This document shows positions 7,086 to 25,644 of a DNA stretch of 64,000 bases, one piece after another. The DNA comes from Natronobeatus ordinarius (GTDB lineage: Archaea > Halobacteriota > Halobacteria > Halobacteriales > Natrialbaceae). The position numbers and the translations under genes are program-made. Positions within the stretch are counted from its first letter, which is position 1; every line of letters begins with the position of its first letter. The stretch covers positions 3,720,001 to 3,784,000 of the forward strand of contig NZ_CP101456.1 in NCBI RefSeq assembly GCF_024362485.1, given 5' to 3'. The notes beneath the pieces are model-generated. The model was given only the letters and a program-made list of their open reading frames with translations. It searched no databases and was not told the origin of the DNA.

Positions 7086-7110
7086 ATGGTGGATGATACC
7101 GTGAAACCCC

Positions 7111-7123: not shown

Positions 7124-7179
7124 TTACCGGAACTCACGGGTGAGCTACACGATTCGCCTAGCTCGTGGATTCGTCGCAA

Positions 7180-7188
7180 CACATATGT
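7180..7188 (+). promoter_or_regulatory. TATA-like box of the MFS gene
   Basis: cacatatgt is centred 28-29 bp before the chosen ATG at 7213, supporting that start over the in-frame ATG at 7165. Confidence 0.45.
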
Positions 7189-7212
7189 CCGTCTACCGGA
7201 CTAGTCGTCACA

Positions 7213-8376
7213 ATGGCTGGTACGACGTCGACGACTCGAGAACCGACGGCGATTCCGTGGCTGGCGGTGGGGTCCGTCGGCGTCGGCCTGTTCGGGCTCG
7301 GGCTGGCCGTCGGCGGCTACGGCGCGTACGTCTCGTTGCTCATCGCTCGCGGCGTCTCCCCCGACGCCGCGGGCTTTGGCATGTCGCTGTTCTTGCTCGG
7401 TCAGTTGCTCGCGGTCGTCCCGGCGGATCGACTGACGCGCACGCGGTCGGTCGAACGGGTCGCCGGCCTCGGACTCGTCCTCGCCGGCGTCGGCATCGCC
7501 ATCGGCGCCGTCCCGGCGCTCGAGCCCACCTACGTCTCCCGGTTCGTGCTCGGCCTCGGACAGGGAGCAGCGTTCGTGGCGGGGATGAAGTACGTCGGCC
7601 AGCGAACGAGCGGGGCCGATACCGCGACTGCACAGGGGATGCTCGGGGCGCTTTTTACCCTCGGACTCGCGATCGGCCTGGCGGCCGCGCCGGTCGCGGT
7701 CTCGACGCTCGGACCCGCGATTCCGGCGGGGCTCTCGAGCGCCGTCGCCGTCGTCGGTGGTGCGCTGACGGTCCGGCTGGCGCCGGTCTCGGCGAGTGCG
7801 AGGCCGCCACTCCGAACCTACCTCGAGCCCTTTACCACCGCAGGCGGCCTCGCGCTCGGCCTCGGAAACATGGCCACCTTCGGTTTCCTGATGGTGGCCG
7901 CGACGTGGTACGCGGAGCTACTCGAGGGCGCGGCGATGCCGGCGACGGCCGTGCTCGTCGGGTTCGCGCTGGCGACCGTTCTCGGTCGCGGACTGGGTGG
8001 CTGGCTCTCGCGGGGCTACGGCGAACGGGCGACCGTGGCGGGGACGCTCCTCGGGCTGTCGATCGTCCTCGGTGGGCTCGCAGCGGCGATTTCGGTCGAC
8101 TCCGCGATCGGCATCGGACTCGCCCTCGTCGCGACGGGTTTCGGGTTCGGCATTCCGTTCGGCCCGCTGTTCAGCCTCGCCTTCTCCGAACTCGCCGACG
8201 ACCCGGGCGTGACGCTCTCGGGGATGTTGCTCGTCGGCAACGGCGGCGCGCTCGCTTACCCGTGGCTCGTCGGGTGGCTGCTGGCGGCGACGGCCGGGTA
8301 CGCCGCCGGTTTCGCGGCAATGGCGGCCACCGTCGCGGCGATCTGGCTGCTCTGGCTGCTGGCGATCGGTCGGTGA
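7213..8376 (+). CDS. MFS transporter
   Basis: This 387-aa integral membrane protein has twelve hydrophobic segments and the usual six-plus-six MFS layout with a basic cytoplasmic loop after TM2 (ADRLTRTRSVERV). The first segment starts around residue 15. The sequence does not identify a substrate. It is transcribed divergently from the NCS2 permease and converges on a CocE/NonD hydrolase, so it may import a nucleoside, ureide or amide, or export a product. The ATG at 7213 is supported by a TATA-like box; the upstream in-frame ATG would add 16 unlikely residues. Confidence 0.88.
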   Translation: MAGTTSTTREPTAIPWLAVGSVGVGLFGLGLAVGGYGAYVSLLIARGVSPDAAGFGMSLFLLGQLLAVVPADRLTRTRSVERVAGLGLVLAGVGIAIGAVPALEPTYVSRFVLGLGQGAAFVAGMKYVGQRTSGADTATAQGMLGALFTLGLAIGLAAAPVAVSTLGPAIPAGLSSAVAVVGGALTVRLAPVSASARPPLRTYLEPFTTAGGLALGLGNMATFGFLMVAATWYAELLEGAAMPATAVLVGFALATVLGRGLGGWLSRGYGERATVAGTLLGLSIVLGGLAAAISVDSAIGIGLALVATGFGFGIPFGPLFSLAFSELADDPGVTLSGMLLVGNGGALAYPWLVGWLLAATAGYAAGFAAMAATVAAIWLLWLLAIGR

Positions 8377-8454
8377 CCGACCGACGACCGGGGGTGAGAA
8401 AACTGCGTAGGGGGACTCGAAGGATAGTGCTCGTCGAAACGAGCGACTACGCTC

Positions 8455-10374: not shown

Positions 10375-10399
10375 CGTCTCCAAGAGGGAGGTCGAAGGG

Positions 10400-10411
10400 G
10401 TAATAGTTTAC
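10400..10411 (-). promoter_or_regulatory. TATA box of the CocE/NonD hydrolase
   Basis: Minus-strand gtaaactatta lies ~27-30 bp upstream of the ATG at 10374. Confidence 0.5.
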
Positions 10412-10467
10412 TCCCGAACACCGGTTCCAAAATGCGAACCGCGACCGAACCGTGAGTTCGACGACCG

Positions 10468-12318
10468 CTACTGGAACGCCGTCAGCCCCAGCCGCTCGAG
10501 CGTCTCGCTCGTCGGGGCACCGTCGTCGCCCCAGCCTCTGAAGTCGTAGTACTCCTCGAGCATCGACTCGAGTTCTTCGGGCGGGCAGTGCATCCCTTCG
10601 GCGGGACCGTCGGGGATCGGTTCGTGCAGCACCCGGTGGGGGAGGGTGTCGGACTCGCGATCGGCGACGCCGCGCTCGACGTTGATCAGCCGTTCCAGGT
10701 TGTAGATCCGCTCGCCGATCGCTTCGACCTCGTCTGTCGTCAGCTCCCAGCCCGTCGCCGCGGCGATGGCGTCGCGGTAGCGCTCGGTGATCGCTTTCCC
10801 CCAGCCCCCTTCGCTGACGAACCGACACTGGGTCAGCGAATCGCCGAGGGCGGTGAAGTGCTGGGAGCGAGCGGCGAAGACGGCCGTGCCGTCGGTCGTC
10901 TCGTCGTACTCGCCGCCGTACTGGCGCGTCGGCCGCGTATCGTGGTGAGAGCCCCCGCGGGTCGACGTCGCGTAGCCGATGCTCATCCCCTTCAGCCCGC
11001 GCGGGGAGTGGGCGGCGAACTCGAGGCCTTTCGCTCCGTGGAGGTAACGCTTGGCGTCCTCGTCGAGCTCCGCGGCGAAGCGGAACGAGCCCTCGGCGAG
11101 GGCGTCGCCGATCCCCTCGCGGGCGGCCGTCTCGCAAGCGAGGTCGACCAGGCCCTCGGCGTCGCCGAACTCGAGGTGAGGCGAGGCGTCGGCTTCGAGC
11201 AGTCCCTTCTCGTAACACTCGCGCGCGAAGGCGACGGTGACGCCCCAGCTGATCGTGTCCATCCCCAGCCGGTCACAGCGGTCGTTCGCCTTCATCACCC
11301 GCTTGACGTCGTGGACCTCCTGCATCGTCGCCGTCCCGAAGAGGCTCTCGAACTCGGGGATCTTCGCGTCGGTGATGCCCTCGGATTCGACGGTGACGTG
11401 TTTCCCACAGCGGACTGCGCAGTTGGCACAGGTCGTGTGCTCGGTGACGTACTCGGCCTCGAGGGTCTCGCCACTGATCCGCTCGGCGAGCTCGGGGTCG
11501 GTCTGCTCGTACTGGTTGTTTCGCCAGCCGAGTTTCCCCATCTCGTTGATCGGGTTCACGAGGCCGGCCGTGCCGTACTCCTGGAGCATCTCCGTCTCAG
11601 CCATCAGCGGCCGCATCCGACTGATGGTCAGTTCCCGGAACGCATCCTCGCGGGCGACGGTCGGCTCGAACGAGCCCTCCCGCACCGCGACCGCCTTGAC
11701 GCCCTTCGAGCCGAGGACGGCGCCGGCACCGCCCCTGCCGGCGACGCCCTCGCGGTCTCGGCCTTTGTGCACGAGGCAGGCGTAGCGAACCAGGTTCTCC
11801 CCGGCGGGGCCGGCCGCGATCACGTGGACGTCGTCGTCGCCGTCTTCCTCGCGCTCGCGGACGGCCTCGCAGCTCTCGTAGGTGTCCATCCCCTCGAGGT
11901 CGGGCGCGGGAACGACCGACGCGCCGTCCTCGTCGACCAGGACGTACGAGCACTCCTCGGCCGCGCCGTGGAGGACGATCGTCTCGAAGCCGGTGGTCTT
12001 CTGGGCTCGCGGGAACGTCCCGCCGAAGGTACTGTCGAAGAAGCCGTTCGTCATCGGGCTGACGAAGCCGACGATTCCGCGACTCGTACTCTGAAACGCC
12101 GTCGCGTTCATCGGCCCGACGGCGAAGACGACGACGTTCTCGGGGTCGAACGGGTCGGCCGACGGCGGGACGTGTTCGGCAACCTGTGCCGCCGCGAAGC
12201 CGTTGCCACCGAGCAAGGCTCTGGCGCGACCGGGGTCAATCAGCTCGCGCTCCGCCTCCCCCGAGTCGAGGTGAACGTGGAGGATCTCGCCGCCGTAGAC
12301 TGGTGGGAGCTCGCTCAT
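10468..12318 (-). CDS. Aldehyde:ferredoxin oxidoreductase, tungsten-containing
   Basis: This 616-aa enzyme is of the AOR family, which oxidises aldehydes to carboxylates with ferredoxin as acceptor using a tungsten bis-pterin and one 4Fe-4S cluster. The first three cluster cysteines are CANCAVRC near residue 296 and the fourth fits DSLTQCRF near residue 500. The N-terminal GGNGFAAAQV and SPMTNGFFDSTFGG motifs are standard AOR cofactor contacts. It starts 4 bp after the aminotransferase stop, so the pair is one operon. An aminotransferase making an aldehyde such as malonate semialdehyde, followed by an aldehyde oxidase, is an attractive pairing, but the substrate is inferred. Confidence 0.92.
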   Translation of the reverse strand: MSELPPVYGGEILHVHLDSGEAERELIDPGRARALLGGNGFAAAQVAEHVPPSADPFDPENVVVFAVGPMNATAFQSTSRGIVGFVSPMTNGFFDSTFGGTFPRAQKTTGFETIVLHGAAEECSYVLVDEDGASVVPAPDLEGMDTYESCEAVREREEDGDDDVHVIAAGPAGENLVRYACLVHKGRDREGVAGRGGAGAVLGSKGVKAVAVREGSFEPTVAREDAFRELTISRMRPLMAETEMLQEYGTAGLVNPINEMGKLGWRNNQYEQTDPELAERISGETLEAEYVTEHTTCANCAVRCGKHVTVESEGITDAKIPEFESLFGTATMQEVHDVKRVMKANDRCDRLGMDTISWGVTVAFARECYEKGLLEADASPHLEFGDAEGLVDLACETAAREGIGDALAEGSFRFAAELDEDAKRYLHGAKGLEFAAHSPRGLKGMSIGYATSTRGGSHHDTRPTRQYGGEYDETTDGTAVFAARSQHFTALGDSLTQCRFVSEGGWGKAITERYRDAIAAATGWELTTDEVEAIGERIYNLERLINVERGVADRESDTLPHRVLHEPIPDGPAEGMHCPPEELESMLEEYYDFRGWGDDGAPTSETLERLGLTAFQ

Positions 12319-12322
12319 CCGA

Positions 12323-13660
12323 TCACGCCTCCATCGCCGCGTCGGCGTGCTCGAGGGCGTCGTCGATCGCGTCGATCGCCTCGTCGACGTCCTCGCGGGT
12401 GATCGTCAACGGCGGCGCGATGATCAACGTGTTGATCATGTTCGCGAGGTAGACGCCGTTTTCGCCGGCGCGAGCGGCCACCTCGTCGACGACCGTGGTC
12501 TCCGGGGAGAGCTTGTCCGAGCGCACGCCGAAGGGTTCGCGACGGTCGCTGCGTTTCGTCAGCTCGATTCCCCTGAACAGCCCGACGCCGCGGACCTCGC
12601 CGACGCTCGGGTGGGCGGCCGAAAGTTCCTCGAGTCGGTCGCCGAGATACGCACCGATTTCGGCCGCGTGCTCGATCAGGTTCTCTTCCTGGTAGGTTTC
12701 GACGGCGGCCAGCCCCGCCGCGCAGGCCACCGGATGGCCGGCGTAGGTGTGGCCGTGACAGAACATGTGTTCCTCGAAGTGGTCGGCGATCTCCGGGGTG
12801 ACGATCGTCCCTCCGAGCGGGGCGTACGCGCCCGTCAACCCCTTGGCCATCGTCATGATGTCCGGCGTGACGTCGAACAGGTCACAGCCGAACCACTCGC
12901 CGGTTCGGCCGAAGCCGCTCATCACCTCGTCGCAGATGAGCAACGCCCCGTGATCGTGGGCGATCTCTTTCAGCCGCGGAAGATACTCCGCTGGTGGCAC
13001 GAGAATTCCGTTCGAACCGACGACCGGCTCGACCAGCACCGCGGCGACGGTGTCGCCCTCGAGCATCAGCATCTCGTCTATGTACTCGAGGCTCTCCATC
13101 GGCTCGAGCGTCGAGCCGTAGGCGTAGGGGTCCGGTGCCTTGATCGTCCCCGGAATGCCCGGCTCCGCTTCGAGTCGGCGTGGATCGCCGGTGACGCTGA
13201 TCGAGCCGTAGGTCGCGCCGTGGTAGGAGCGGTACCGGGAGACGATCTTCTGTTTGCCCGTGTACATGCGGGCGATCTTGATCGCGGCCTCGACGGCCTC
13301 GGTGCCGCTGGTCGAGAAGAACGTCTTCGAGAGCGATCCGGGGGTGACTTCGGCGAGTTTCTCGCCGAGTCGCGCCCGCGCCTCGGTCGTGTAGCCCGGC
13401 GCGATGTAGGCGGTCTCACGAGCCTGGTCGGCGATGGCGTCGGCGACCCGGTCCGCCGAGTGGCCCAGGTTCGAACACATCAACTGTCCCGAAACGTCGA
13501 GGTACTCGGTTCCGTCCGCCGTCTCGAACCGGTTCCCGTCGGCGCCGACCACCTGCGTCGGCTGCACCTGCTTTTGATACGACCACGTCCCGAACACGTG
13601 TTTCTTATCCAGCCGCTCGAGTTGATTCCCTTCGTCGCCCGAACCGGATCGGTCCGTCAT
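12323..13660 (-). CDS. Class III aminotransferase (beta-alanine/omega-amino acid type)
   Basis: This 445-aa PLP-dependent enzyme of the class III (omega-aminotransferase) group moves an amino group from beta-alanine, GABA or a related amine to an oxoacid, giving an aldehyde. Visible motifs are FFSTSGTEAVEAAIK for the cofactor phosphate, ICDEVMSGFGRTGEWF with the pyridine-binding Asp, and TMAKGLTGAY with the Schiff-base Lys. The ATG at 13660 (MTDRSG) is chosen over an upstream in-frame ATG. Downstream is the aldehyde oxidoreductase at 4 bp; divergently upstream is the dihydropyrimidinase-like gene. With the M20 carbamoylase this gives the set needed to take a dihydropyrimidine to beta-alanine and onward. 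Confidence 0.9.
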   Translation of the reverse strand: MTDRSGSGDEGNQLERLDKKHVFGTWSYQKQVQPTQVVGADGNRFETADGTEYLDVSGQLMCSNLGHSADRVADAIADQARETAYIAPGYTTEARARLGEKLAEVTPGSLSKTFFSTSGTEAVEAAIKIARMYTGKQKIVSRYRSYHGATYGSISVTGDPRRLEAEPGIPGTIKAPDPYAYGSTLEPMESLEYIDEMLMLEGDTVAAVLVEPVVGSNGILVPPAEYLPRLKEIAHDHGALLICDEVMSGFGRTGEWFGCDLFDVTPDIMTMAKGLTGAYAPLGGTIVTPEIADHFEEHMFCHGHTYAGHPVACAAGLAAVETYQEENLIEHAAEIGAYLGDRLEELSAAHPSVGEVRGVGLFRGIELTKRSDRREPFGVRSDKLSPETTVVDEVAARAGENGVYLANMINTLIIAPPLTITREDVDEAIDAIDDALEHADAAMEA

Positions 13661-13785
13661 GGTGGTTCGAGTAGTCGGTTCGGTACAATCAATCTTGTGT
13701 ACCCTGGTATCACACATCCCGTGAGGGCGGCCGGGTGAGCGGTTTCGAAGGCGTCGTCGACTGCCGTACCCTTCGGCTGGGACAA

Positions 13786-13795
13786 ACGTTTATCG
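13786..13795 (+). promoter_or_regulatory. TATA box of the dihydropyrimidinase-like gene
   Basis: acgtttatcg is centred 28 bp before the ATG at 13819, indicating a leaderless transcript and deciding against the in-frame ATG at 13735. Confidence 0.6.
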
Positions 13796-13818
13796 TTCCC
13801 TCACTCGTTGTCGGCCGC

Positions 13819-15201
13819 ATGGTTGACACTGTTATACACGGCGGGGCCGTCGTGACGCCGACGGAGACCGTCGAGGCCGACGTCGCCATCGACGGCGAAC
13901 GGATCGCTGCGGTCGGCGACCCTGACTCGATGCCCGACGCCGACCGCGTCGTCGACGCCACTGGAAAACTCGTGCTGCCCGGCGTCGTGGACCCACACGT
14001 CCACATCGACGACATGTTCTCGATCGACACCTACGAGACGGCCACCAGGGCGGCGGCGCTCGGGGGAACGACGACGTACATCGATTTCGCCTGGCAGGCC
14101 TGGATCGGCGACCTCAGCCCGTGGGACGAAGAGGGGACGCTGCTCGAGGGAATCGAGCGAAAACGGGAGAAAGGAGCCGGCGCGGTCGTCGACTACGGCC
14201 TCCATGGTGCAATCACGCGCGCGGACGAGGCGGTGCTCGAGGAACTCGAGGCCGTCGTCGAGGCTGGGGTGCCGTCGATCAAGCTGTTCACCGCCTACGA
14301 GATCGGCCTCGAGAACGGGTTCATGGATCGGGTGTTCAACCGGTTAGCCGACCTGGACGCGTTCGCCGTGCTCCACACCGAAGAGGGAACGATCTGTGAC
14401 GAACGGACCGAACGCTTCCAGCGCGAGGGCAAGGGCGATCCGGAGTGGTACCCCCGGTCGCGGCCGGATTACGCCGAGGCGATCGCGGCCGAGGCGGCGG
14501 CGCGGATGGCGATGGAGGCGGGCTGTCGGTACTACGGCATCCACACCTCCTGTCGGAAGTCGGCGGAGGTGCTCGCCCGGTATCGCGAACAGTACGGCGA
14601 AGAGCGGCTGCGCGCTGAAACGTGCACCCACTACACGACGCTCGACGATTCGATCTTCGAAGAACTCGGCCACCTCCCGATGATCGCGCCGCCGATCCGG
14701 AAACCGGACGACGTCGAGGCCATGTTCGAACACCTGAAACGGGGAACGCTCGACGTCGTCTCGACGGACCACTGTGGCTACACCGAAGAGAGCAAACAGG
14801 TCACGAACTGGTGGGACAGCAAGTTCGGCGCGAACGCACTCCAGACGAACCTCCCGGTGTTCCACGACGAGGCGGTCAACCGGCGGGGCTTCTCCTATCC
14901 GTTCCTCGTCCGGGTCCTCTGTCGCAACCCGGCCCGGATCTTCGGGCTGCAGGACAAGGGAACGCTCGACCCCGGCACGGACGCCGACGTCGTCGTCTTC
15001 GATCCGACCGAGACGTACACCATCACGGCCGAGGAGAACGCCTCTGCTGCTGACTTCTCGATCTACGAGGGTCGGGAGGTAACTGGCCGGGTGAAACAGA
15101 CGTTCGTCCGCGGCGAACTCGTCGCCGACGACGGCGAGATCGTCGCCGAGGAGGGACACGGCCAGTTCCTCGAGCGCGAATCGACCGACTGGGACTGCTG
15201 A
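13819..15201 (+). CDS. Dihydropyrimidinase/D-hydantoinase-family amidohydrolase
   Basis: This 460-aa cyclic amidohydrolase opens dihydrouracil, hydantoin, allantoin or a similar ring to an N-carbamoyl acid. The binuclear metal ligands are visible: DPHVHID near residue 55, the carbamylated-Lys segment SIKLFTAYE near residue 154, LHTEEG near 184, IHTSC near 240 and STDHC near 315. Length is standard. The ATG at 13819 is supported by a TATA box; the frame extends upstream but without family similarity. The M20 carbamoylase that would act on its product converges 22 bp downstream. Dihydropyrimidinase and allantoinase cannot be separated by eye. Confidence 0.9.
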   Translation: MVDTVIHGGAVVTPTETVEADVAIDGERIAAVGDPDSMPDADRVVDATGKLVLPGVVDPHVHIDDMFSIDTYETATRAAALGGTTTYIDFAWQAWIGDLSPWDEEGTLLEGIERKREKGAGAVVDYGLHGAITRADEAVLEELEAVVEAGVPSIKLFTAYEIGLENGFMDRVFNRLADLDAFAVLHTEEGTICDERTERFQREGKGDPEWYPRSRPDYAEAIAAEAAARMAMEAGCRYYGIHTSCRKSAEVLARYREQYGEERLRAETCTHYTTLDDSIFEELGHLPMIAPPIRKPDDVEAMFEHLKRGTLDVVSTDHCGYTEESKQVTNWWDSKFGANALQTNLPVFHDEAVNRRGFSYPFLVRVLCRNPARIFGLQDKGTLDPGTDADVVVFDPTETYTITAEENASAADFSIYEGREVTGRVKQTFVRGELVADDGEIVAEEGHGQFLERESTDWDC

Positions 15202-15223
15202 GCGGCCGCGGCCGATCCGCCGC

Positions 15224-16468
15224 CTACGGGTCGAACTCTGCGCCGGCGAGCCGGCAAACCGCGTTCGCGAGGGTGTTCGCCCCGCTGTAACAGTCCTCCC
15301 AGCTGGTGTACTCGTCCTCGTTGTGGCTCTTCCCGTCCTCGCTGACCGTGAATACCATGCTCGTGTCACACACGTCGGTCATGTGGACGGCGTCGTGGCC
15401 GGCTCCGCTGTAAAGGCGCATGCTGTCGAGTTCGAGGTCGTCGGCGGAGCTCTGGACGGCGTCGATACACGCGTCCGAAAAGTCGACGCTGGCCGACCGG
15501 TGGCGCTCTTCCCACTCCCAGTCGACGCCTTCGCGCTCGGCGGCGGCCGCCGCTTCGGCGAGAACCCGTGCTTTCGCCTCCTCGACGATCTCGTCGTCCG
15601 GGTCCCGGAAGCCGAACGTGATCGTCACCTCGTCGGGGATGATGTTGATCGAGTTCGGCTCGACGTCCACGTAGCCGACCGTGCCGACCGTGCGCTCGCC
15701 GAGCGTGCCCGGAATCCGGCGCACCTGGGTGATCACGTCGGCGGCGGCGACGAGCGCGTCGTTTCGGAAGTGCATCGGCGTCGGCCCGGAGTGATCGGCC
15801 TCGCCGTAGAAGGTGATCGCCCCCCAGAAAAAGCCCACGACGCCCGTGACGACGCCGACGTCCGTCTCGTTCAACTCGAGGTACGGTCCCTGCTCGACGT
15901 GGAGCTCGAGGTAGGCCTCGTATTCCTCCTGTGGTTCGGCGGGGAGGTCGCCCCGGTAGCCGATGCGCTCGAGTTCGTCGACCAGCCGGACACCGTCGGC
16001 GTCGGTCCGCTCGTACTCGGTCTCGAGGTCGTGTGCGCCGACCCAGACGCCACTGCCTTGCATCGCCGGCTGGAAGCGCGAGCCCTCCTCGTTGGTCCAG
16101 TTGACGATCTCGATCGGGTGGTCGGTCTCGATGCCCTCTTCCTCGAGTGTCCGGAGGAGCTCGAGCGGCGCGATCACGCCCAGCGCGCCGTCGTAGATGC
16201 CGCCGAAGGGCTGGGAGTCGAGGTGTGAGCCGACCAGCACCGGCGCGGCGTCCGGGTTCGTTCCTTCACGCCGACCGAACATATTCCCGAACTCGTCGAC
16301 GCGAACCGGAATCTCGAGCGCCTCGAGCTGGTCGCGAAACCAGTCGCGAATCTCTCTGTCCTCCTCAGAGAGCGCGAGTCGGTGGAGCCCGCCGCCGTCG
16401 GTCGCGCCGATCTCGGCCTGTTCGGTCATCGTCTCGACGAAGCGGTCGCGCTCGAGAGTCAGTGACAT
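15224..16468 (-). CDS. M20-family N-carbamoyl-amino acid / allantoate amidohydrolase
   Basis: This 414-aa Zn-dependent amidase hydrolyses N-carbamoyl amino acids (for example N-carbamoyl-beta-alanine) or allantoate, releasing ammonia and CO2 or a ureide. Metal and catalytic motifs in order are GSHLDSQPFGGIYDG near residue 80, NWTNEEGSRF near 119, ELHVEQGPYLE near 187, AGHDAVHM near 350 and SHNEDEY near 375, where the final His is a ligand. The ATG at 16468 is chosen because minus-strand cttaaga at 16490-16496 lies ~25 bp upstream. The gene converges on the hydantoinase-like gene, the enzyme expected to supply its substrate. Confidence 0.9.
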   Translation of the reverse strand: MSLTLERDRFVETMTEQAEIGATDGGGLHRLALSEEDREIRDWFRDQLEALEIPVRVDEFGNMFGRREGTNPDAAPVLVGSHLDSQPFGGIYDGALGVIAPLELLRTLEEEGIETDHPIEIVNWTNEEGSRFQPAMQGSGVWVGAHDLETEYERTDADGVRLVDELERIGYRGDLPAEPQEEYEAYLELHVEQGPYLELNETDVGVVTGVVGFFWGAITFYGEADHSGPTPMHFRNDALVAAADVITQVRRIPGTLGERTVGTVGYVDVEPNSINIIPDEVTITFGFRDPDDEIVEEAKARVLAEAAAAAEREGVDWEWEERHRSASVDFSDACIDAVQSSADDLELDSMRLYSGAGHDAVHMTDVCDTSMVFTVSEDGKSHNEDEYTSWEDCYSGANTLANAVCRLAGAEFDP

Positions 16469-16558
16469 ACGTCTCCCTCCCACGGAATTTTCTTAAGTGT
16501 TACCCGGGTGCTCACTCGAGAACCGCATCGTCGGTCGGGAGCGGCCGGTCCGAACGAA

Positions 16559-16568
16559 CGTATTTATA
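16559..16568 (+). promoter_or_regulatory. TATA box of the VOC-family gene
   Basis: cgtatttata is centred ~27 bp before the ATG at 16590, a near-ideal leaderless promoter. Confidence 0.65.
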
Positions 16569-16589
16569 CTGACGGACGGAGAACCTCGT

Positions 16590-16964
16590 ATGGACGTTAT
16601 TCACACCGCCATCTGGGTATCGGACCTCGAGGAGACGGCTGCCTTTTACGAGGACGTGCTGGGACTCGAGTTCCAGTCTGAGTTCACCGGCGACGACGGC
16701 GTCGTCAACTACTACGTCGGCACCGAGGACGGGGCCGACCTCCAGTTCAAGTACGATCCGGACGGCAAGTCGGCCGGCCCGCCCGCCGGCATCGACCACG
16801 TCGCACTCGCGGTCGACGACGTCGACGCCGAGTTCGACCGGGTGCTCGAGGCCACGGACCCGCCGGTCGTTCTCGAGCCGACGACAGTCGAGGCGGCGAA
16901 CGCCCGGGTGGCGTTCCTCGAAGACCCCGCGGGGTACGTGGTCGAACTCGTCGAGTATCAGTGA
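16590..16964 (+). CDS. VOC-family (glyoxalase/bleomycin-resistance fold) protein
   Basis: This 124-aa single-domain vicinal-oxygen-chelate protein shows both beta-alpha-beta modules: MDVIHTAIWVSDLEETAAFY at the N-terminus and GIDHVALAVDD near residue 68, ending FLEDPAGYVVELVEY. His5, His71 and the C-terminal Glu occupy the usual metal-ligand positions. It resembles lactoylglutathione-lyase-like proteins by length and pattern, but VOC proteins catalyse many reactions and no substrate can be assigned. It is a monocistronic leaderless gene beginning 121 bp from the divergent carbamoylase start. Confidence 0.88.
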   Translation: MDVIHTAIWVSDLEETAAFYEDVLGLEFQSEFTGDDGVVNYYVGTEDGADLQFKYDPDGKSAGPPAGIDHVALAVDDVDAEFDRVLEATDPPVVLEPTTVEAANARVAFLEDPAGYVVELVEYQ

Positions 16965-17083
16965 GCAGTCCCAGAGGACAGTGGCCGGTTACCGTCTGAA
17001 TCGGTAACGATTTTCGTATCCGAACCTCTCACTGGGTGTACACGCGGTCGAAAATCTCGCCGACTGAACTCATTCTGAGCGGT

Positions 17084-17092
17084 ACATTTATG
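17084..17092 (+). promoter_or_regulatory. TATA box of the second NCS2 permease
   Basis: acatttatg predicts a transcript start near 17115. Since the ATG is at 17190, the mRNA has an unusually long leader of ~75 nt for this organism. Confidence 0.5.
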
Positions 17093-17120
17093 TGGGTGGT
17101 ATTGGTTTTTGTGTTCATGT

Positions 17121-17151
17121 CTGTGCGAAATGTGACCACATTCACGCACAG
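17121..17151 (+). promoter_or_regulatory. Inverted repeat in the permease 5' leader
   Basis: CTGTGCG (17121-17127) pairs with CGCACAG (17145-17151), and AATGTG (17129-17134) with CACATT (17137-17142), giving 13 paired bases with a small internal bulge. It lies at or just after the predicted transcript start, so it could be a repressor operator or an RNA hairpin controlling the nucleobase permease. Confidence 0.55.
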
Positions 17152-17189
17152 CACGCCCGGCGAAGGACTGGGCACACCAAACTGATACC

Positions 17190-18764
17190 ATGACTGATAA
17201 ACGCGATACCACGGATTCACTCGAGACCGACGGGGGAACGCCTTCCCGGGAGGAGGCCTCTTTCGTCGAGTACGGCATCGACGACAAACCACCACTCGGC
17301 GAGTCGATCTTCCTCGGAGTACAGCACTACCTGACGATGATCGGCGCGACCGTCGCGATTCCGCTGATTCTGGCGGGAATCATGGAGATGCCTCCCGCCG
17401 AAACCGCACGGCTCGTCGGGACGTTCTTCGTCGTCTCCGGGATCGCTACGCTCTTACAGACGACGGCCGGGAACCGGTATCCGATCGTCCAGGGTGGGAC
17501 GTTCGCCCTGCTCGCGCCGGCGATCGCCGTCATCGTCGCGATGGGTGCATCCTGGGAGGCGACGATCCTCGAACTTCAGGGGGCGATCATCGCGGCTGCG
17601 GCCATACAGGTCGTAATCGGCTACGTCGGCCTGCTGGGGAAGCTGAAGTACTACCTCTCGCCGGTCGTCATCGCGCCGGTGATCGTCCTCATCGGCCTGT
17701 CGCTGGTCGGCGTCGGCGACGTCACCCGTCCGGACCAGAACTGGTGGCTCCTCGGGCTGACGCTCTTTCTCATCATCCTGTTCTCGCAGTACCTCGACCA
17801 GTACAACCGGTACGCCAGGCTGTTTCCGGTTCTGCTCGGGCTCGCCAGCGCGTGGCTCATCGCTGCAGCGCTGACGTTCGCTGGCGTGTACACCCAGGAA
17901 TCGCACGAAGGTCTCGGCTACATCGACACGTCGCTCATGACCGAGGCACCGCTGATCCAGCCGATCACGCCGTTCCAGTGGGGCATCCCCGAGTTCACGC
18001 TCGCGTTCGCCGTGGGGATGTTCGCCGGCGTCGTCGCCTCGATGATCGAGAGTCTCGGTGACTACTACGCCGTCGCTCGCATCTCCGGGCTCGGTGCGCC
18101 GAGCGAGAAACGCATCAACCACGGTATCGGCATGGAGGGTATCGGGAACATCATCGCCGGCATCATGGGTACCGGCAACGGGTCGACGTCCTACGGTGAG
18201 AACATCGGTGCGATCGGGATCACCGGCGTCGCCTCCCGATACGTGGTACAGATCGGCGCGATCGTCATGCTCATCGTCGGCTTCTTCGGCCCGTTCGGTG
18301 CGCTGATCACGTCGATCCCGGGACCGATCGTCGGTGCGCTGTACATCGCCATGTTCGGCCAGATCGCGGCGATCGGCCTCTCGAACCTCAAGTACGTCGA
18401 CCTCGACGCCTCCCGTAACGTCTTCATCATCGGGATCGCGCTCTTCCTCGGCCTGGCGATGCCGATCTACATGGACAACGTCGGCGGTGCAGCCCAGTTC
18501 CAGGACATCGCCGAAGGCGCGGCGCTCATCGGTCCGGTCCTCGGTATCGAACTCGTCTCTGACACCATCTTCGTCATCGGTTCGACGACGATGGCCGTCG
18601 GTGGGATCGTCGCGTTCGTCCTCGACAACACCATCCGCGGGACCCGCGAAGAACGCGGTCTCGCCCAGTGGGAGCACATCACCGAGGACGAAGACGAGTT
18701 CCAGACGTTCTTCGAGCGGATGGGCTCCGGCGGTGACAAACCCGCAGCCGGCCGCGCCGACTGA
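17190..18764 (+). CDS. NCS2-family uracil/xanthine permease
   Basis: This 524-aa membrane protein with about 14 hydrophobic segments carries the NCS2 signatures SMIESLGDYYAVARISG (TM8 substrate-binding Glu) and SYGENIGAIGITG (TM10 NxG motif), plus QGGTFALLAP in TM3. It is longer than the first permease in this window because of an acidic C-terminal tail of ~50 residues. It likely symports uracil, xanthine or urate. The start follows a 75-nt leader with an inverted repeat, in contrast with the mostly leaderless genes around it, suggesting regulated expression. A T-run follows the stop. Confidence 0.93.
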   Translation: MTDKRDTTDSLETDGGTPSREEASFVEYGIDDKPPLGESIFLGVQHYLTMIGATVAIPLILAGIMEMPPAETARLVGTFFVVSGIATLLQTTAGNRYPIVQGGTFALLAPAIAVIVAMGASWEATILELQGAIIAAAAIQVVIGYVGLLGKLKYYLSPVVIAPVIVLIGLSLVGVGDVTRPDQNWWLLGLTLFLIILFSQYLDQYNRYARLFPVLLGLASAWLIAAALTFAGVYTQESHEGLGYIDTSLMTEAPLIQPITPFQWGIPEFTLAFAVGMFAGVVASMIESLGDYYAVARISGLGAPSEKRINHGIGMEGIGNIIAGIMGTGNGSTSYGENIGAIGITGVASRYVVQIGAIVMLIVGFFGPFGALITSIPGPIVGALYIAMFGQIAAIGLSNLKYVDLDASRNVFIIGIALFLGLAMPIYMDNVGGAAQFQDIAEGAALIGPVLGIELVSDTIFVIGSTTMAVGGIVAFVLDNTIRGTREERGLAQWEHITEDEDEFQTFFERMGSGGDKPAAGRAD

Positions 18765-19424: not shown

Positions 19425-20645
19425 ATGGACAGCGGAGACCACATCCTCGACGGCGTGAGAGTCGTCGATCTGACGACGTTCGTGACTGGCGGCTTCTGTT
19501 CACTGATGCTCGCGAATCAGGGGGCAGAGGTGATCAAAGTCGAGCGACCCGGTGCGGGTGACGACAACCGTCACTCCGGCCCGCCGTTCGTTGAGGGCCA
19601 GTCGCCGTACTTCTGGACGGTCAACTACGGCAAGAAAAGCGTCGAACTCGACCTCAAGAGTGCGGCCGGACGCGAGGCGCTCTACGACCTGGTGAGCGAG
19701 GCGGACGTCTTCCTCCAGAACTACCGGCCGGGAACCGCAGCACGGCTCGACGTCGACGAGGAGACGATCCGATCGCACAACGAAGAGATCGTCTACTGTG
19801 CCATTTCGGCGTTCGGCCAGACCGGCCCGTGGCGCGAACGTCCTGGCTACGACCTGATGATCCAGGGGATGAGCGGCATCATGAGCGTGACCGGCGAGGC
19901 CGACGGCCGGCCGGTCAAAGTCGGTCTGCCGATGACGGACCTCATCACCGCCATGTGGGCTGCCTTCGGCATCTCGAACGCGCTCTACCGTCGCGAACGC
20001 ACGGGTGAGGGCGAGTACATCGACCTCGGCATGCTCGAGTCGGCGCTCCCGTGGCTCACCAAGCAGGCCGGCAAGGTGTTCGCCGGCGAGTCCCCCTCGC
20101 GCATGGGCACCAAAGACCCCGTCCTCGCGCCGTACCAGACGTTCGAGACCGCCGACGGCTACCTCAACGTCGCCTGCCTCAACCAGAAGCTCTGGCGGGG
20201 GATGTGCACGGCAATTGGCCGCGCCGAACTCATCGAGGACGAGCGATTCGAGACCAACGCTGATCGGGTCGAGCACATGGACGAACTCGGGGCCGAACTC
20301 GAGACGACGTTCCGGGAGCGAACGACCGACGAGTGGATCGACCTCCTCCTCGAGGACGCCGGAATCCCGGCCGGACCGGTGCTCGAGCCCGAGGACGCCC
20401 TCTACAACGAACAGACCGACGCCCGCGAGGCTGTGACGTCGATGGATCACCCCGAGTGGGGCGAGATCCCCGTCGTCGAACACCCGCTCAAGTACGGCCG
20501 TTCGGACAGCGGCTTCCAGGGGCCACCGCCGGCGCTCGGCGAGCACAACCGGAGCGTCTTCCGGGCGCTCGGCTACACCGAAGACGAACTCGACGAACTC
20601 GCCGAGCGCGGTGCCTTCGGCGAGGAGCACACGCGTGAGGACTGA
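19425..20645 (+). CDS. CaiB/BaiF family (class III) CoA-transferase
   Basis: This 406-aa class III CoA-transferase moves CoA between carboxylic acids by way of an aspartyl-CoA anhydride. The N-terminal LDGVRVVDLTTFVTGGFCS and GAEVIKVERPGAGDD motifs and the catalytic-Asp segment RPGYDLMIQGMSG near residue 150 are present, followed by the standard C-terminal ring-closing region. The ATG at 19425 is used because MDSGDHILDGVRVVDL is the family start. It overlaps the thiolase-like gene (start 20635), so it heads a three-gene operon with the thiolase-fold and DUF35 proteins. The operon logic is activation of an acid to a CoA ester, then cleavage or condensation. Confidence 0.92.
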   Translation: MDSGDHILDGVRVVDLTTFVTGGFCSLMLANQGAEVIKVERPGAGDDNRHSGPPFVEGQSPYFWTVNYGKKSVELDLKSAAGREALYDLVSEADVFLQNYRPGTAARLDVDEETIRSHNEEIVYCAISAFGQTGPWRERPGYDLMIQGMSGIMSVTGEADGRPVKVGLPMTDLITAMWAAFGISNALYRRERTGEGEYIDLGMLESALPWLTKQAGKVFAGESPSRMGTKDPVLAPYQTFETADGYLNVACLNQKLWRGMCTAIGRAELIEDERFETNADRVEHMDELGAELETTFRERTTDEWIDLLLEDAGIPAGPVLEPEDALYNEQTDAREAVTSMDHPEWGEIPVVEHPLKYGRSDSGFQGPPPALGEHNRSVFRALGYTEDELDELAERGAFGEEHTRED

Positions 20646-21780
20646 GGTCTCCGTCGCCGGCGTTGGGATGACCAGGTTCGCCCGCGAGCACGACGCGAGC
20701 GCCGTCGAACTGGCCGAACGGGCGGCCTGGCGCGCGCTTTCCGATGCGGGGCTGTCGCCGGCGTCGCTCGAGTCGGTCCACGTCGGCAACATGGCGGCCG
20801 AGGCGTTCGCGGAACGAACCGGGATCGAAAACGCACTCTGTGGCGCGCTGGGGCTCGAGGGCGTGACGGCCGACCGCGTCGAGAACACGAGTGCAAGCGG
20901 GGCGAGCGCGCTGCTCCGGGCGGTCGACGCGATCCGGGCTGGACGCTCGGAGACGGCCCTCGTCGTCGGCGTCGAAACGATGTCGAAAGCCGACACCGAC
21001 GTCGCGACGGAGGTCATCAGCCGACTCGTCCACGGCCGGGAGTACGACCAGGGACTCACGCTCCCGTCGTTCGCCGGCCTGACCGCCGATCACTACCTCC
21101 GGACCTTCGACGCCGATCCGGACGCGCTCGCGGCCGTCGCGGTCAAGAACCACCGGAACGCCGCCGCGAACCCGTACGCGCAATTCCAGCGGACGATCAC
21201 GGTGGAGGAGGCGCGAGCCTCGCCGCCCGTCGCCGAGCCGTTGCGACTGTACGACTGTTGCCCCACGGGCGACGGTGCCGCCGCGATCGTCCTCTCTGGT
21301 GCGGACGGTCCCGTTCAGGTCGCCGCCGTCGCCGGTGCGACCGGGACGCACGCGGTCGCCGAACGGCCGGATCCACTCGAGATAGAAAGCGTCTCTCGCG
21401 CAGGCGCGCGAGCGATGGCCGCCGCCGACGTCACGCAGGACGACGTCGACGTCGCCTGCATCCACGACGCGTTCACGATCCTCGAGCTGCTCGAACTCGA
21501 GGAGCTGGGCTTCTACGAGCGCGGGGAGGCCTGGAACGCGACGCTCGAGGGGCGAACCGACCTCGACGGCGAGCTTCCGGTCAACCCCGGTGGCGGGCTC
21601 AAGGCGCGGGGTCACCCCCTCGGTGCGACCGGCGTCTCACAGGTGATCGAACTCGTCTGGCAGCTTCGGGGTGACGTCCCCGGCGACCGATCGCCGGTCG
21701 AGGGCGCTCGAGTGGGGCTCGCGCTCAACGTCGCGGGCTTCGGAAACAACGCAATCTGTACGATCGTGGAGGCGGCATGA
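20635..21780 (+). CDS. Thiolase-fold (SCP2-like) protein lacking the nucleophilic Cys
   Basis: This 381-aa protein has the SCP2/archaeal thiolase fold: TEVSVAGVGMTRFAREH at the N-terminus, HDAFTILELLELEELGF and GGGLKARGHPLGATG with its active-site His. At the nucleophile position, where active thiolases have a Cys in a CxSG-like context, the sequence reads ENTSASGASAL, so Cys appears replaced by Ser. Together with the adjacent DUF35 gene this recalls Ltp2-type retro-aldolases, which act as thiolase-fold/DUF35 complexes. The start is a GTG overlapping the CoA-transferase stop by 11 bp; the earlier in-frame GTG at 20611 is less likely. Product: an acyl-CoA lyase or a non-canonical acyltransferase. 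Confidence 0.85.
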   Translation: MRTEVSVAGVGMTRFAREHDASAVELAERAAWRALSDAGLSPASLESVHVGNMAAEAFAERTGIENALCGALGLEGVTADRVENTSASGASALLRAVDAIRAGRSETALVVGVETMSKADTDVATEVISRLVHGREYDQGLTLPSFAGLTADHYLRTFDADPDALAAVAVKNHRNAAANPYAQFQRTITVEEARASPPVAEPLRLYDCCPTGDGAAAIVLSGADGPVQVAAVAGATGTHAVAERPDPLEIESVSRAGARAMAAADVTQDDVDVACIHDAFTILELLELEELGFYERGEAWNATLEGRTDLDGELPVNPGGGLKARGHPLGATGVSQVIELVWQLRGDVPGDRSPVEGARVGLALNVAGFGNNAICTIVEAA

Positions 21781-22139
21781 CCGCTCGAGACGATCCGGCC
21801 GTCCCCGTCGATCACGCGTTCGTCTGTGAGGCGTGTGCGAGCCGGTGGTACTACACCCGCGAACGGTGTCCCGACTGCGGCGCCGACGACGTGGCGACCG
21901 AACGGCTCCGGACTGGTCGCGTGCTGGCGACGACGACCGTCCACGCGACGCCGCCCGACGTGAGAACGCCGAACTCGCTGGGGCTCGTCCGCTTCGACGA
22001 CGTCACCCTCATCGCCCAGCTCGCAGACGACTCGACCGAAGCGGGTGACGCAGTCGAGTTCGGCGATTCGGCCGTCCTCCGGGACGGCGATCCGTCGACT
22101 GACGGTCCGCGGCTCGTTCGGGCCGATCCTCGCGACTGA
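21777..22139 (+). CDS. DUF35 Zn-ribbon / OB-fold protein, partner of the thiolase-like protein
   Basis: This 120-aa protein has a rubredoxin-like zinc ribbon (CEAC near residue 17 and CPDCGADD near residue 31) followed by an OB-fold of about 70 residues. DUF35 proteins bind thiolase-fold enzymes and help present the CoA substrate, both in the archaeal thiolase/HMG-CoA synthase complex and in Ltp2-type aldolases. It overlaps the thiolase stop by 4 bp (ATGA), so the two are translationally coupled and almost certainly form a complex. It is the last gene of the CoA-transferase operon. Confidence 0.88.
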   Translation: MTARDDPAVPVDHAFVCEACASRWYYTRERCPDCGADDVATERLRTGRVLATTTVHATPPDVRTPNSLGLVRFDDVTLIAQLADDSTEAGDAVEFGDSAVLRDGDPSTDGPRLVRADPRD

Positions 22140-22427
22140 GGGTGCCTCACACCTGATGGGTGTGTTGAACCGATAGCGACCGTCCGGTTCGACGTCCGGT
22201 CGTCGCGCGACGGCCTTCGATCGCCCGACGATCGAGGTGCTCGCGATCATCGGTACGCCGTCGAATCGGACACATCCACGCTCGTCGGCCACGACGCCGA
22301 TAGAAACGAGTTGGCTGGCCATTTCTGAATCGAATTAATTGACGAATGAGTGTTTTATGGATCAGAGATTGCAGATATTTCACTGTTACAAATCCTTTTG
22401 TCGTCGTTCGCCAAACGGACGGTCGTC
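22140..22427. other. Intergenic region before the urease operon
   Basis: The ~290 bp between the DUF35 stop and the urease leader ORF become AT-rich from ~22320 (gaattaattg, tgttttatgg, gatatttcactg) and hold the promoter area of the operon. Short reading frames here are highly basic and not haloarchaeal in character. No gene is supported. Confidence 0.5.
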
Positions 22428-22490
22428 ATGCCGACACTCGAGCACGGTGCACACGAACGATTCCCGCTGGCGGAGGCGATCCGTGGCTGA
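22428..22490 (+). CDS. 20-codon leader ORF of the urease operon
   Basis: ATG at 22428 opens a 20-codon frame that starts [12 protein letters not shown] and stops at 22490. Its end overlaps the ureB GTG at 22483 by 8 bp, and it contains a full GGAGG Shine-Dalgarno (22472-22476) six bases before that GTG. A TATA-like ccttttg (22394-22400) is ~30 bp upstream of the ATG, consistent with a leaderless start. It may be a leader peptide coupling ribosomes into ureB; no homology is recognised. Confidence 0.5.
22472..22476 (+). promoter_or_regulatory. Shine-Dalgarno deciding the ureB start
   Basis: GGAGG is placed six bases before GTG at 22483, fixing that codon as the ureB start instead of the upstream in-frame ATG at 22339, which would add a basic 48-residue extension foreign to UreB. 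Confidence 0.65.
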
Positions 22491-22884
22491 CGACGTCGTT
22501 CCCGGCGAACTGTTCCGGGCGAGCGACGACGTCCGGATCAACGCGGGGCGCGAGACGGCGTCCGTCACCGTCGAAAACACGGGCGACAGGCCGGTCCAGG
22601 TCGGCTCGCACGTCCACTTCTTCGAGGTGAATCCGGGCCTCGCGTTCGACCGCGAGGCCGCCTACGGGATGCGCCTGAACGTCCCTGCGGGAACCTCGGC
22701 CCGGTTCGAACCCGGCATCGAGCGCGACGTCGAACTGGTCGCCATCGGCGGCGACCGGATCGTTTACGGGATGGGCGGGCTGGTGAACGGCCCGCTCGAC
22801 GACCCGGACGCGAAGGCGCGGGCGCTCGAGCGAGCCCGAACAGGTGGCTATCTGGGGGCCGACCACGCGGAGGACGACCGATGA
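22483..22884 (+). CDS. ureB: Urease subunit beta
   Basis: This 133-aa protein is the small beta subunit of urease, which joins UreA and UreC in the cytosolic nickel enzyme that hydrolyses urea to ammonia and carbamate. Family sequence is continuous from [20 protein letters not shown] through [19 protein letters not shown] to [20 protein letters not shown] at 22483 with an upstream GGAGG is the start. The last ~25 residues form a haloarchaeal extension. It overlaps ureC by 4 bp and is the first structural gene in ureB-C-A-G-D-E-F. Confidence 0.95.
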
Positions 22885-24632
22885 CGCGTGACGTTCCCCG
22901 GCGGACGTACACGGACCTCTACGGGCCGACCGAGGGCGATCGGGTTCGGCTGGGTGATACGAACCTCCTCGCGAAAATCGAGGTCGACCACGGTGTTCCC
23001 GGCGAGGAGGCCGTCTTCGGCGGCGGGAAGACGATGCGCGACGGGCTCGGAATGCAGTCGGGCGTCACCCAGGCCGAGGGAGCACTCGACTGGGCGTTTA
23101 CGAACGTCGTGGTGATCGACCCGATCCTCGGCGTTCGGAAGGGCGACGTCGGCGTCCGCAACGGCGAAATCGTCGGCGTCGGGAAGGCCGGAAACCCCGA
23201 CACGATGGACGACGTCGACATGGTGATCGGCCCGAGCACCGACACGATCCCGGCCGACGGGCTGATCGCCACGCCCGGGGGGTTCGACATCCACGTCCAT
23301 TTCAACAGCCCACAGCTCGTCGAACACGCGCTCGCGGGCGGAATCACGACGATGTTCGGCGGCGGCTTCGGCGGCGGCGCCACCACGTGCACGCCCGGCC
23401 CGACCAACGTAAAACGGTTCCTCCAGGCTGCCGAGGCCTGGCCCGTCAACGTCGGTTTTTACGGCAAGGGCAACGCCAGCAAACCCGACGCCCTCTCCGA
23501 ACAGGTCGAGGCCGGCGTCTGCGGCCTGAAACTCCACGAGGACTGGGGCTCGACGCCCGCGGCGATCGACACCTGCCTCGAGGTCGCCGACGAAGAGGAC
23601 GTCCAGGTCTGTATCCACACGGACACCCTCAACGAGTCGGGCTTCGTCGAACACACCTTCGACGCCATCGACGGCCGGACGATCCACACCTTCCACATCG
23701 AGGGCGCCGGCGGCGGCCACGCCCCGGACGTCCTCGAGCTCGTCGGCCACGAGCACATGCTGCCCTCCTCGACGAACCCGTCGATGCCCTACACCGTCAA
23801 CACCTTCGACGAGCACCTCGATATGGTGATGGTTTGTCACCACCTCAACCCCGACGTCCCCGAGGACGTCGCCTTCGCTGAGTCACGTATCCGCGCCGAA
23901 ACGATCGCCGCCGAGGACGTCCTCCACGACACCGGCGCCATCTCGATGATGACCTCCGACTCCCAGGCGATGGGTCGGCAAGCCGAGGTCGTCTCGCGGA
24001 CCTGGCAGACCGCCCACAAGATGAAGGCCCAGCGCGGCCCGCTGCCGGAAGACGAGGGCACGGGCGCGGACAACGCCCGCATCCGACGGTACGTCGCCAA
24101 GTACACGATCAACCCCGCGATCACGGCGGGGATCGACGACTACGTTGGCTCGCTCGAGGCCGGCAAACTCGCCGACCTCGTGCTGTGGGACCCCGCCTTC
24201 TTCGGGGTCAAACCGAAGGTCGTCATCAAGGGCGGCTTCCCCGTCTGGAGCGAGATGGGCGAGGCCAACGGTTCGCTGATGACCTGCGAGCCGATCATGC
24301 AGCGCGAACGCGCCGGGGCCCAGGGACGGGCCCGCCACGACCTCTCGATCACGTTCGTCAGCGAGGCAGCCCACGAGGCCGACGTCGGCGAGGCCTACGA
24401 CCTGAAAACGCCCGTCCGCCCGGTTCGCGGGACCCGTGAGGTCAGCAAGGCCGACATGGTCGCGAACGACGCCTGTCCCGACGACATCGAGATCGATGCC
24501 CAGACGTTCGAGGTCTCGATCAGCGAGGAGCAAAGCTCCTCGAGCGATCGGACATCGTCCGATAACGACGGCGAACCGGTAACCTGCGATCCGGTCGAGG
24601 AAGTCCCCCTCGCCCAGCGATACCTCCTGTAA
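22881..24632 (+). CDS. ureC: Urease subunit alpha (catalytic)
   Basis: This 583-aa protein is the catalytic subunit with the dinickel centre. Ligands and active-site residues are all visible: GGFDIHVHF (His pair) near residue 134, GLKLHEDWG with the carbamylated Lys near 214, [11 protein letters not shown] near 244, [13 protein letters not shown] near 270, the mobile-flap Cys in MVCHHL near 317 and [12 protein letters not shown] with the metal Asp near 357. A Ser/Asp-rich insertion (near residues 551-562) precedes the C-terminal end, an acidic halophilic decoration. It overlaps ureB by 4 bp and ureA follows after 2 bp. Expected to be fully active. Confidence 0.97.
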
Positions 24633-24634
24633 CG

Positions 24635-25024
24635 ATGAATCTCACCCCCAAAGAACGAGAACGACTCACGATCTTCATGGCCGCAGAGCTCGCGAGACGC
24701 CGCAAAGAACGTGGCGTGAAGCTGAACCACCCCGAATCGGTCGCCTACATTGCCGACTGGGTCTGTGAGGGCGCACGCGAGGGCACGTCCGTCTCCCAGC
24801 TTCGCGAGGAAGCCACGCGACTGCTCACCCGCGAAGACGTGATGGATGGTGTCCCCGAGCTGGTCGACATGGTCCAGGTCGAGCCCGTCTTCCCCGACGG
24901 GACGAAGCTCGTGACCGTCCACGACCCCATCCGGGCTGACAGCCGCGAACAGCTCGAGGACGCCCTCGAAGAACCGCCGACGAGGCCGGGAACGACTGCC
25001 GACGCCGACGAGGTGACCGACTGA
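24635..25024 (+). CDS. ureA: Urease subunit gamma
   Basis: This 129-aa protein is the gamma subunit: [20 protein letters not shown] at the N-terminus, [20 protein letters not shown], and [18 protein letters not shown] close to the family C-terminus, plus a ~28-residue acidic extension. It helps form the (UreABC)3 oligomer. It starts 2 bp after ureC and overlaps ureG by 1 bp. The subunit order B-C-A, with gamma last, differs from the usual bacterial A-B-C order but is common in haloarchaea. Confidence 0.96.
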
Positions 25025-25644
25025 TGGGCTACCGCGACGTCGCCAAGGTCGGCCTCGGCGGCCCGGTGGGCTCCGGGAAGACGGCGCTCGTGAAACGACT
25101 CGTCCCCGAACTCGTCGACCGCGGCTACGAGGTCGGCGTGATCGCCAACGACATCATGACCCAGGAGGACGCCGACGTCCTCCGGAAGTCGTTCGCGGAC
25201 GTCCTGCCCGAGGACCTGGTCCGCGGCGTCGAAACCGGCGCCTGCCCCCACACGGGCATCCGCGAGGACCCCTCGATGAACCTCGCGGCCATCGACGAGT
25301 TCACCGCGTGGCACCCCGACCTCGACGTCGTCGTGATCGAGAGCGGCGGTGACAACCTCGCGGCGACGTTTAATCCCGAACTCGCCGACTACTTCCTGTT
25401 CGTCATCTCGGTCGCCGAAGGCGAGGACATTCCCCGCAAACGGGGTCCCGGCGTCACCCAGGCCGACCTGCTCGTGATCAACAAGACCGACCTCGCTCCC
25501 TACGTCGACGCCGACCTCGAGGTGCTCGAGCGCGACGCCGCCGCCGTCCGCGGCGACGATCCGTTCACCTTCACGAACTGCAAGAGCGGCGAGGGGGTCG
25601 AGGAGGTGCTCGAACACGTCGAACGGGAGGTGCTGTTCGCGTGA
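25024..25644 (+). CDS. ureG: Urease accessory GTPase UreG
   Basis: This 206-aa SIMIBI GTPase drives nickel insertion into urease. The P-loop is GGPVGSGKT at residue ~12, the nickel-binding CPH motif occurs as [15 protein letters not shown] near 74, the switch/Walker B region is [13 protein letters not shown] near 105 and the base-specificity motif is NKTD near 157. Length is normal. It overlaps ureD by 4 bp (GTGA). It acts with UreD, UreE and UreF encoded next in the same operon. Confidence 0.96.

Follow-up and report, generated by a model that had tools for sequence, protein, structure and literature searches.

Gene layout and main finding

We analysed a 64,000-nucleotide stretch of the Natronobeatus ordinarius genome (contig NZ_CP101456.1, positions 3,720,001 to 3,784,000; hereafter the window), in which three genes follow each other head to tail in overlapping order. 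They encode a CaiB/BaiF family III CoA-transferase (CaiB), a thiolase-like protein without the nucleophile Cys (THL), and a small DUF35 protein (Table 1). The CoA-transferase that the initial annotation had placed upstream of THL matches CoA_transf_3 (PF02515) at 1.5e-126, with 422.9 bits against a cut-off of 23.3, and its gene overlaps that of THL by 11 bp, given a THL start at 20635. THL itself matches both Thiolase_N (4.6e-44) and Thiolase_C_1 (2.5e-40), and the DUF35 protein matches OB_ChsH2_C (PF01796) at 9e-7. The same annotation had likened the THL-DUF35 pair to the Ltp2-type retro-aldolases of steroid side-chain breakdown. We find this analogy weak, as judged from sequence and models, and propose that THL probably catalyzes a different C-C bond reaction on CoA compounds, not the steroid-type one.

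Active-site residues and predicted folds

Comparison with PDB sequences places the ENTSASG motif of THL opposite EAACASG in the archaeal thiolases 7YVY and 6ESQ and opposite NNNCSTG in an SCP2 thiolase, which indicates that Ser86 occupies the nucleophile Cys position, as had been read from the longer motif ENTSASGASAL. Conservation was assessed in an alignment of 81 rows, drawing on 35 loci from genome contigs, 30 loci from the same family (125 genomes searched), and 5 rows from plasmid records (9 of the 13 matching records were used). The alignment holds 48 orthologue rows, 13 of which are second copies of a gene already drawn from another collection, leaving 35 distinct orthologues, as well as 20 Cys-bearing relatives that were chosen by having that Cys. 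Position 86 is Ser in 34 of the 35 distinct orthologues and Asn in one (L105), and the recurrence of Ser argues that the loss of Cys is neither chance nor a sequencing error. Ser is also found in all 18 further loci from the order search (L151 being the L027 contig again), in the pan-haloarchaeal paralogue type (5 of 5 rows), and in Sulfolobus tokodaii ST0096 (PDB 4YZO), and the Asgard relatives have Pro (3 of 3). The Asn-bearing orthologue, from a Halalkalicoccus sp. FCH27 plasmid (L105:20001-21146), adjoins a cytochrome P450 gene, and there is no CaiB in that stretch.

Both histidines of the thiolase site are retained, His277 of HDAF and His327 of GHPLGATG each being present in 35/35 distinct orthologues; the latter had been recognized from the start. 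In thiolases, the acid/base role falls to the Cys of the HDCF motif or to a C-terminal Cys. The HDCF Cys position holds Ala279 in all 35 distinct orthologues, and Ala is also found there in 7/20 Cys-bearing rows. THL has kept the fold and the HDxF and GHP histidines of a thiolase but neither its nucleophile Cys (Ser86) nor this acid/base Cys (Ala279). Two other histidines, His133 and His239, are present in 43/43 orthologue, paralogue, and Asgard rows and in 0/20 Cys-bearing rows; 4YZO has Ala at position 239. Two Cys residues set the orthologues apart as a distinct group within the Cys-less proteins. Cys275 stands two positions ahead of the HDAF His and occurs in 35/35 distinct orthologues and in 17/18 further loci (Ser in L152), whereas this position is Glu in all 20 Cys-bearing relatives, in the pan-haloarchaeal paralogue type, in the Asgard proteins, and in 4YZO. 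Cys375 is likewise conserved in 35/35, and in 16 of the 17 further loci readable there (Ala in L138).

The AlphaFold model of THL (pLDDT 92.3) best matches the acetoacetyl-CoA thiolase 6ESQ, with a Z score of 61.5 and an rmsd of 1.4 over 378 aligned residues. Next come 7YVY (Z 57.2) and SCP2 thiolases, with 4YZO at 54.6, Ltp2 at 48.2, and Sal at 47.6. In this model, Ser86 immediately precedes the nucleophile-elbow helix. In the DUF35 protein, the Zn-binding residues C17, C20, C31, and C34 (C-x2-C-x10-C-x2-C) are invariant in 9/9 sequences, and its model (pLDDT 82.7) matches the DUF35 chains of 7PXP, 6OK1, and 6ESQ with Z scores of about 10 to 11.3. Judged by its Zn ligands and predicted OB fold, it is a true member of the DUF35 family, in agreement with the initial assignment.

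Table 1. Features of the CaiB-THL-DUF35 module and its surroundings, in window positions; single-residue codons are counted from the THL start at 20635.
Feature	Position	Strand	Remarks
CaiB/BaiF family III CoA-transferase	19425..20645	+	open reading frame open from 19410 (TTG)
THL, Cys-less thiolase-like protein	20635..21780	+	GTG start; second in-frame GTG upstream at 20611
DUF35 (Zn-ribbon/OB-fold) partner, 120 aa, stand-alone	21777..22139	+	4 bp ATGA overlap with THL
Ser86 codon (ENTS86ASG), at nucleophile Cys site	20890..20892	+	alignment
Cys275 codon (ACIHDAF)	21457..21459	+	alignment
His277 codon of HDAF	21463..21465	+	alignment
His327 codon of GHPLGATG	21613..21615	+	alignment
Neighbouring nucleobase catabolism genes	5712..18764	both	profile/annotation matches
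NCS2 xanthine-permease-type transporter	5712-7112	-	
CocE/NonD hydrolase	8455-10383	-	
AOR	10468-12318	-	
Class III aminotransferase	12323-13717	-	
Dihydropyrimidinase-like protein	13816-15201	+	
M20 amidohydrolase	15224-16483	-	
Second NCS2 transporter	17190-18764	+	
MFS and VOC genes	within 5712..18764		also among the nucleobase catabolism neighbours
Start of urease operon: UreB, UreC, UreA, UreG	22339..25644	+	downstream of DUF35

Phylogeny of the Cys-less proteins

In a quick tree with long branches and no bootstrap, 57 rows without the Cys fall on one side (SH-aLRT 97), and the fewest changes between Cys and non-Cys states are two. Two Ala rows are placed with the Cys rows; separate long branches carry L037 (Ser) and L046b (Gly). 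The archaeal Cys-less clade comprises THL, the pan-haloarchaeal paralogue, the Asgard proteins, and ST0096. As far as the sequences tell, the loss of the Cys is old and common to many relatives.

The Cys-less paralogue seems to be near-universal in the family, in which a threshold of E 1e-60 is reached in 123/125 genomes, a count that mixes paralogues. The paralogue in the same genome as the window (L010:8869-10379, C1:1598871-1600016) is 48% identical to THL and has Ser at the Cys site (motifs DQTSSSG and HDMF); its kind is present in most family genomes. No Cys occurs in the part read of its small DUF35-like partner, in which the Zn ribbon thus seems to be lost. A second thiolase copy in L016 and L020 is of the haloarchaeal type EGCAAAG / EACAAAG, in which the Cys is shifted by one residue and Ala takes the usual site.

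In public annotation, these proteins are called 'thiolase family protein', '3-ketoacyl-CoA thiolase', or 'acetyl-CoA acetyltransferase'. The missing Cys makes such thiolase annotations doubtful for the whole clade, including the near-universal paralogue. In the open-licence literature, we found no study of THL-type proteins in haloarchaea.

CaiB as the partner of THL

The best PDB relatives of CaiB are SUGCT (9br6, 5.4e-81), a formyl-CoA transferase (10uh), and YfdE (4hl6), and these nearest solved kin act on dicarboxylates or on formate/oxalate. The Asp of the MTD motif, which we take to be the catalytic Asp, aligns with SUGCT.

THL orthologues (E < 1e-130) occur in 28/125 family genomes, all 28 of which also have CaiB; CaiB itself (E 1e-130 or better) occurs in 51. 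Across the 392 genomes of the order, 48 contain THL (E 1e-115 or better), 142 contain CaiB, and 46 contain both, G133 and G185 being the THL genomes that lack CaiB. Fisher's test on the co-occurrence gives p 1.3e-20 in the order and 3.1e-14 in the family, both values being uncorrected for phylogeny. Forty-three THL-CaiB pairs share a contig, 31 of them adjacent on one strand and 12 at a distance of 0.2 to 20 kb. Of the 142 order genomes that carry CaiB, 96 have no THL. We conclude that CaiB is the real partner of THL. In Halorubrum lacusprofundi (pHLAC01, L108:4702-13526), a pan-haloarchaeal-type thiolase (47%) occurs with CaiB (61%), IclR, MFS, and TRAP genes, in a locus of the kind described below as context B; this arrangement indicates that the link to CaiB is not confined to THL orthologues.

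Genomic contexts

The module is found in three catabolic contexts: nucleobase islands (context A), IclR/TRAP-transporter loci (context B), and deaminase/FAH loci (context C). Context A includes Mo-hydroxylase subunits, a cyclase-family protein, CocE, NCS2 permeases, a hydantoinase-like amidohydrolase, and MoeA, often with ADH and MFS genes. It surrounds THL in the window, in L081, L086, L088, L089, L091, and L101-L103, and, in other families, in L145-L149. L102 has the amidohydrolase, aminotransferase, and AOR set and no Mo-hydroxylase within the stretch. Urease genes adjoin the module in the window and in L101 (next to DUF35). In G030 (L083, L084), the module is present with no nucleobase-island genes within about 20 kb. 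Conversely, L110-L118 are nucleobase islands with CaiB and no THL nearby, G041 having THL on another contig; the CaiB proteins of these THL-free clusters are 82-85% identical in eight loci and 77% in one. A non-homologous replacement of THL behind CaiB in these islands was also considered and rejected, as nothing recognizable follows CaiB in gene calls made by a crude open reading frame score.

Context B includes IclR, MFS, a quinone reductase, a TRAP or TctABC transporter, a TPP enzyme, a second CaiB, and an enoyl-CoA hydratase. Context C includes a COG0402-type deaminase (PRK08204 over cut-off) and an FAH-family protein, often with a TetR regulator; deaminase and FAH occur together in 8 of the 18 genomes examined, and FAH alone in one more.

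Two further genes of the nucleobase islands are conserved. The cyclase-family protein (window 3118-3876, forward strand) shows 86-96% identity across islands, more than its neighbours, and has neither a PDB match at 1e-8 nor an NCBIfam match. A small membrane protein (18824-19306, forward strand) lies between the NCS2 permease and CaiB and is conserved in most context-A islands; it has no Pfam or NCBIfam match.

Proposed reaction

We tentatively favour, at a little below even chances, a reading in which THL-DUF35 is a CoA-thioester C-C lyase that works without an acyl-enzyme on the product of CaiB. CaiB would make the CoA thioester and, as their linkage suggests, feed it to THL; THL and DUF35 would form a thiolase-type heteromer acting on this thioester; and direct C-C cleavage would proceed by forming and stabilizing the CoA-thioester enolate. 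No thiolase acyl-enzyme cycle is expected, since the nucleophile Cys and the acid/base Cys are both gone and the oxyanion-hole-type His277 and His327 are kept. The occurrence of Ser, Asn, and Pro at position 86 suggests that, in the clade as a whole, this site tolerates residues that are not nucleophiles and has not acquired a conserved new one. The C88S and C88A variants of PhlC lost all activity, according to extracts of PMC6392133, which suggests that Ser is no simple stand-in for Cys in the thiolase fold.

As the leaving group, CO2 from a malonyl-type CoA is our first choice, if an unlikely one when taken singly, because decarboxylation is the simplest chemistry for a site in which the histidines remain and the Cys is gone; next comes a retro-aldol carbonyl, of much the same low likelihood. 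The SCP2-thiolase-like protein TbSLP (5AB4-5AB7), like THL a thiolase fold without this Cys, binds malonyl-CoA and acetoacetyl-CoA according to its entry titles, and shows weak malonyl-CoA decarboxylase activity, as cited in extracts of PMC12329534; from the same source, it differs from THL in its YDCF motif and in having no DUF35. Several points weigh against this reading. CtSal itself has no malonyl-CoA decarboxylase activity in the extracts of PMC12329534, the xanthine-type NCS2 transporter speaks against malonate from pyrimidines, and the presence of CaiB in nucleobase clusters without THL indicates that in such clusters CaiB need not be followed by THL. Ser86 is moreover near-universal in the orthologues, which, from the alignment, pure loss would not seem to need.

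Among the alternatives, a Ltp2/Sal-like retro-aldolase, which would cleave a beta-hydroxyacyl-CoA into a carbonyl compound and a shorter acyl-CoA, appears unlikely. Ltp2-ChsH2(DUF35) (6OK1) and Sal-Shy(DUF35) (9MYR) share with THL the thiolase fold, the DUF35 partner, and the absence of the nucleophile Cys, and His239, which THL shares with its closest relatives and which is absent from the Cys-bearing rows, could be a new base. Extracts of PMC12329534 describe three features that THL lacks altogether: a Tyr in the YDxF motif (YDHF in Ltp2, YDCY in Sal, YDCF in TbSLP), a Gly at the nucleophile Cys site (CtSal), and a hydratase tied on through DUF35 (Ltp2 and Sal aldolases). THL has instead the invariant His277, Ser at the nucleophile site, and Ala at the acid Cys of the motif, and it keeps the GHP His. 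In the window, the annotated neighbours include neither a MaoC nor an enoyl-CoA hydratase, none is fused to DUF35, and the model lies closer to acetoacetyl-CoA thiolases than to Ltp2 or Sal. The original suggestion of CoA activation followed by retro-aldol cleavage is upheld for CaiB as functional partner, through co-occurrence, and finds no support for the Ltp2-type retro-aldolase assignment; retro-aldol cleavage by other residues keeps a low probability.

Less probable still is a Ser-dependent thiolase or acyltransferase with Ser86 as the nucleophile. DpsC-type KAS III enzymes offer a precedent for a Ser nucleophile, and the conservation of Ser86 in orthologues and further loci, its place at the nucleophile elbow of the model, and the retention of the GHP His that would activate it are consistent with this. 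Against it are the Asn of L105, the Pro of the Asgard relatives, and the dead C88S variant of PhlC (extracts of PMC6392133). It is improbable, from the alignment, that Cys275 or Cys375 took over catalysis and that the enzyme would be Cys-dependent after all: both are invariant in the distinct orthologues and Cys275 replaces a Glu of the relatives, but L152 and L138 do without one or the other. Cys275 would be the candidate for the other active-site Cys that the initial annotation had named as refuting its own reading. A non-catalytic THL, serving CaiB as a CoA-binding or scaffold subunit, would fit their tight linkage but is very improbable given the full conservation of both catalytic histidines and the thiolase core, and the occurrence of CaiB without THL.

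Pathways considered in the nucleobase islands

Window positions 1-18764 and the genome contain a xanthine-type permease, a Mo-hydroxylase, hydantoinase/M20 genes, and urease, yet the genome has no uricase. A purine route by uricase was rejected for this reason, the control having matched in H. volcanii and B. subtilis. A malonate pathway was examined as well, since the dihydropyrimidinase-like, M20 amidohydrolase, class III aminotransferase, and AOR proteins of the window resemble the Haloferax volcanii uracil route, modelled as uracil to beta-alanine to malonate-semialdehyde in extracts of PMC6801745. In the genome, MMSDH stays below its cut-off (the highest score is 284.5 of 448.5 bits), which was counted in favour of this pathway. 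We set this pathway aside, keeping decarboxylation as one option, because the window NCS2 transporter is above cut-off for the xanthine-permease model, no PreA is over cut-off, and the contexts other than A lack these genes. MCD (PF05292) gave no match, but no positive control matched either.

Comparison with known systems and implications

THL resembles the acetoacetyl-CoA thiolase in the archaeal ACAT/DUF35/HMGS complex (6ESQ/6ET9) and the P. furiosus thiolase (7YVY) in fold and in the HDxF and GHP histidines, and the former also in its DUF35 partner. Both have the nucleophile Cys where THL has Ser; the HDxF motif is HDCF in 6ESQ and HDAF in THL and 7YVY, and the operon partner is HMG-CoA synthase in the 6ESQ/6ET9 system and CaiB for THL. 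The benzoylsuccinyl-CoA thiolase BbsAB (7PXP) also pairs a thiolase with a Zn-ribbon/OB partner, but BbsB keeps its Cys (SACSAG). BbsAB is presumably linked to a CaiB-type benzylsuccinate CoA-transferase, and 9FN0 is among the PDB matches of the window CaiB. ST0096 is the best PDB sequence match of THL (2.4e-75) and belongs to the same Cys-less clade, but differs in having HDMA instead of HDAF and neither His239 nor Cys275. The one open-licence paper found for 4YZO and thiolase is limited, in its passage on this protein, to a structural comparison.

It is possible, if rather doubtful, that CaiB, THL, and DUF35 constitute a haloarchaeal acid-degradation module that is portable and works in two steps, in which CoA transfer would be followed by direct C-C cleavage via a CoA enolate (with the HDAF and GHP histidines and the new His239 and Cys275), serving several nitrogen-heterocycle and dicarboxylate pathways, and that THL belongs to a class of Cys-less thiolases that is ancient in archaea. 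Once the reaction is found, the structure 4YZO, which is solved but has no explanation, would receive a name, and CaiB together with the three contexts would then lead to a step in the haloarchaeal breakdown of heterocycles or dicarboxylates that is still missing from the maps.

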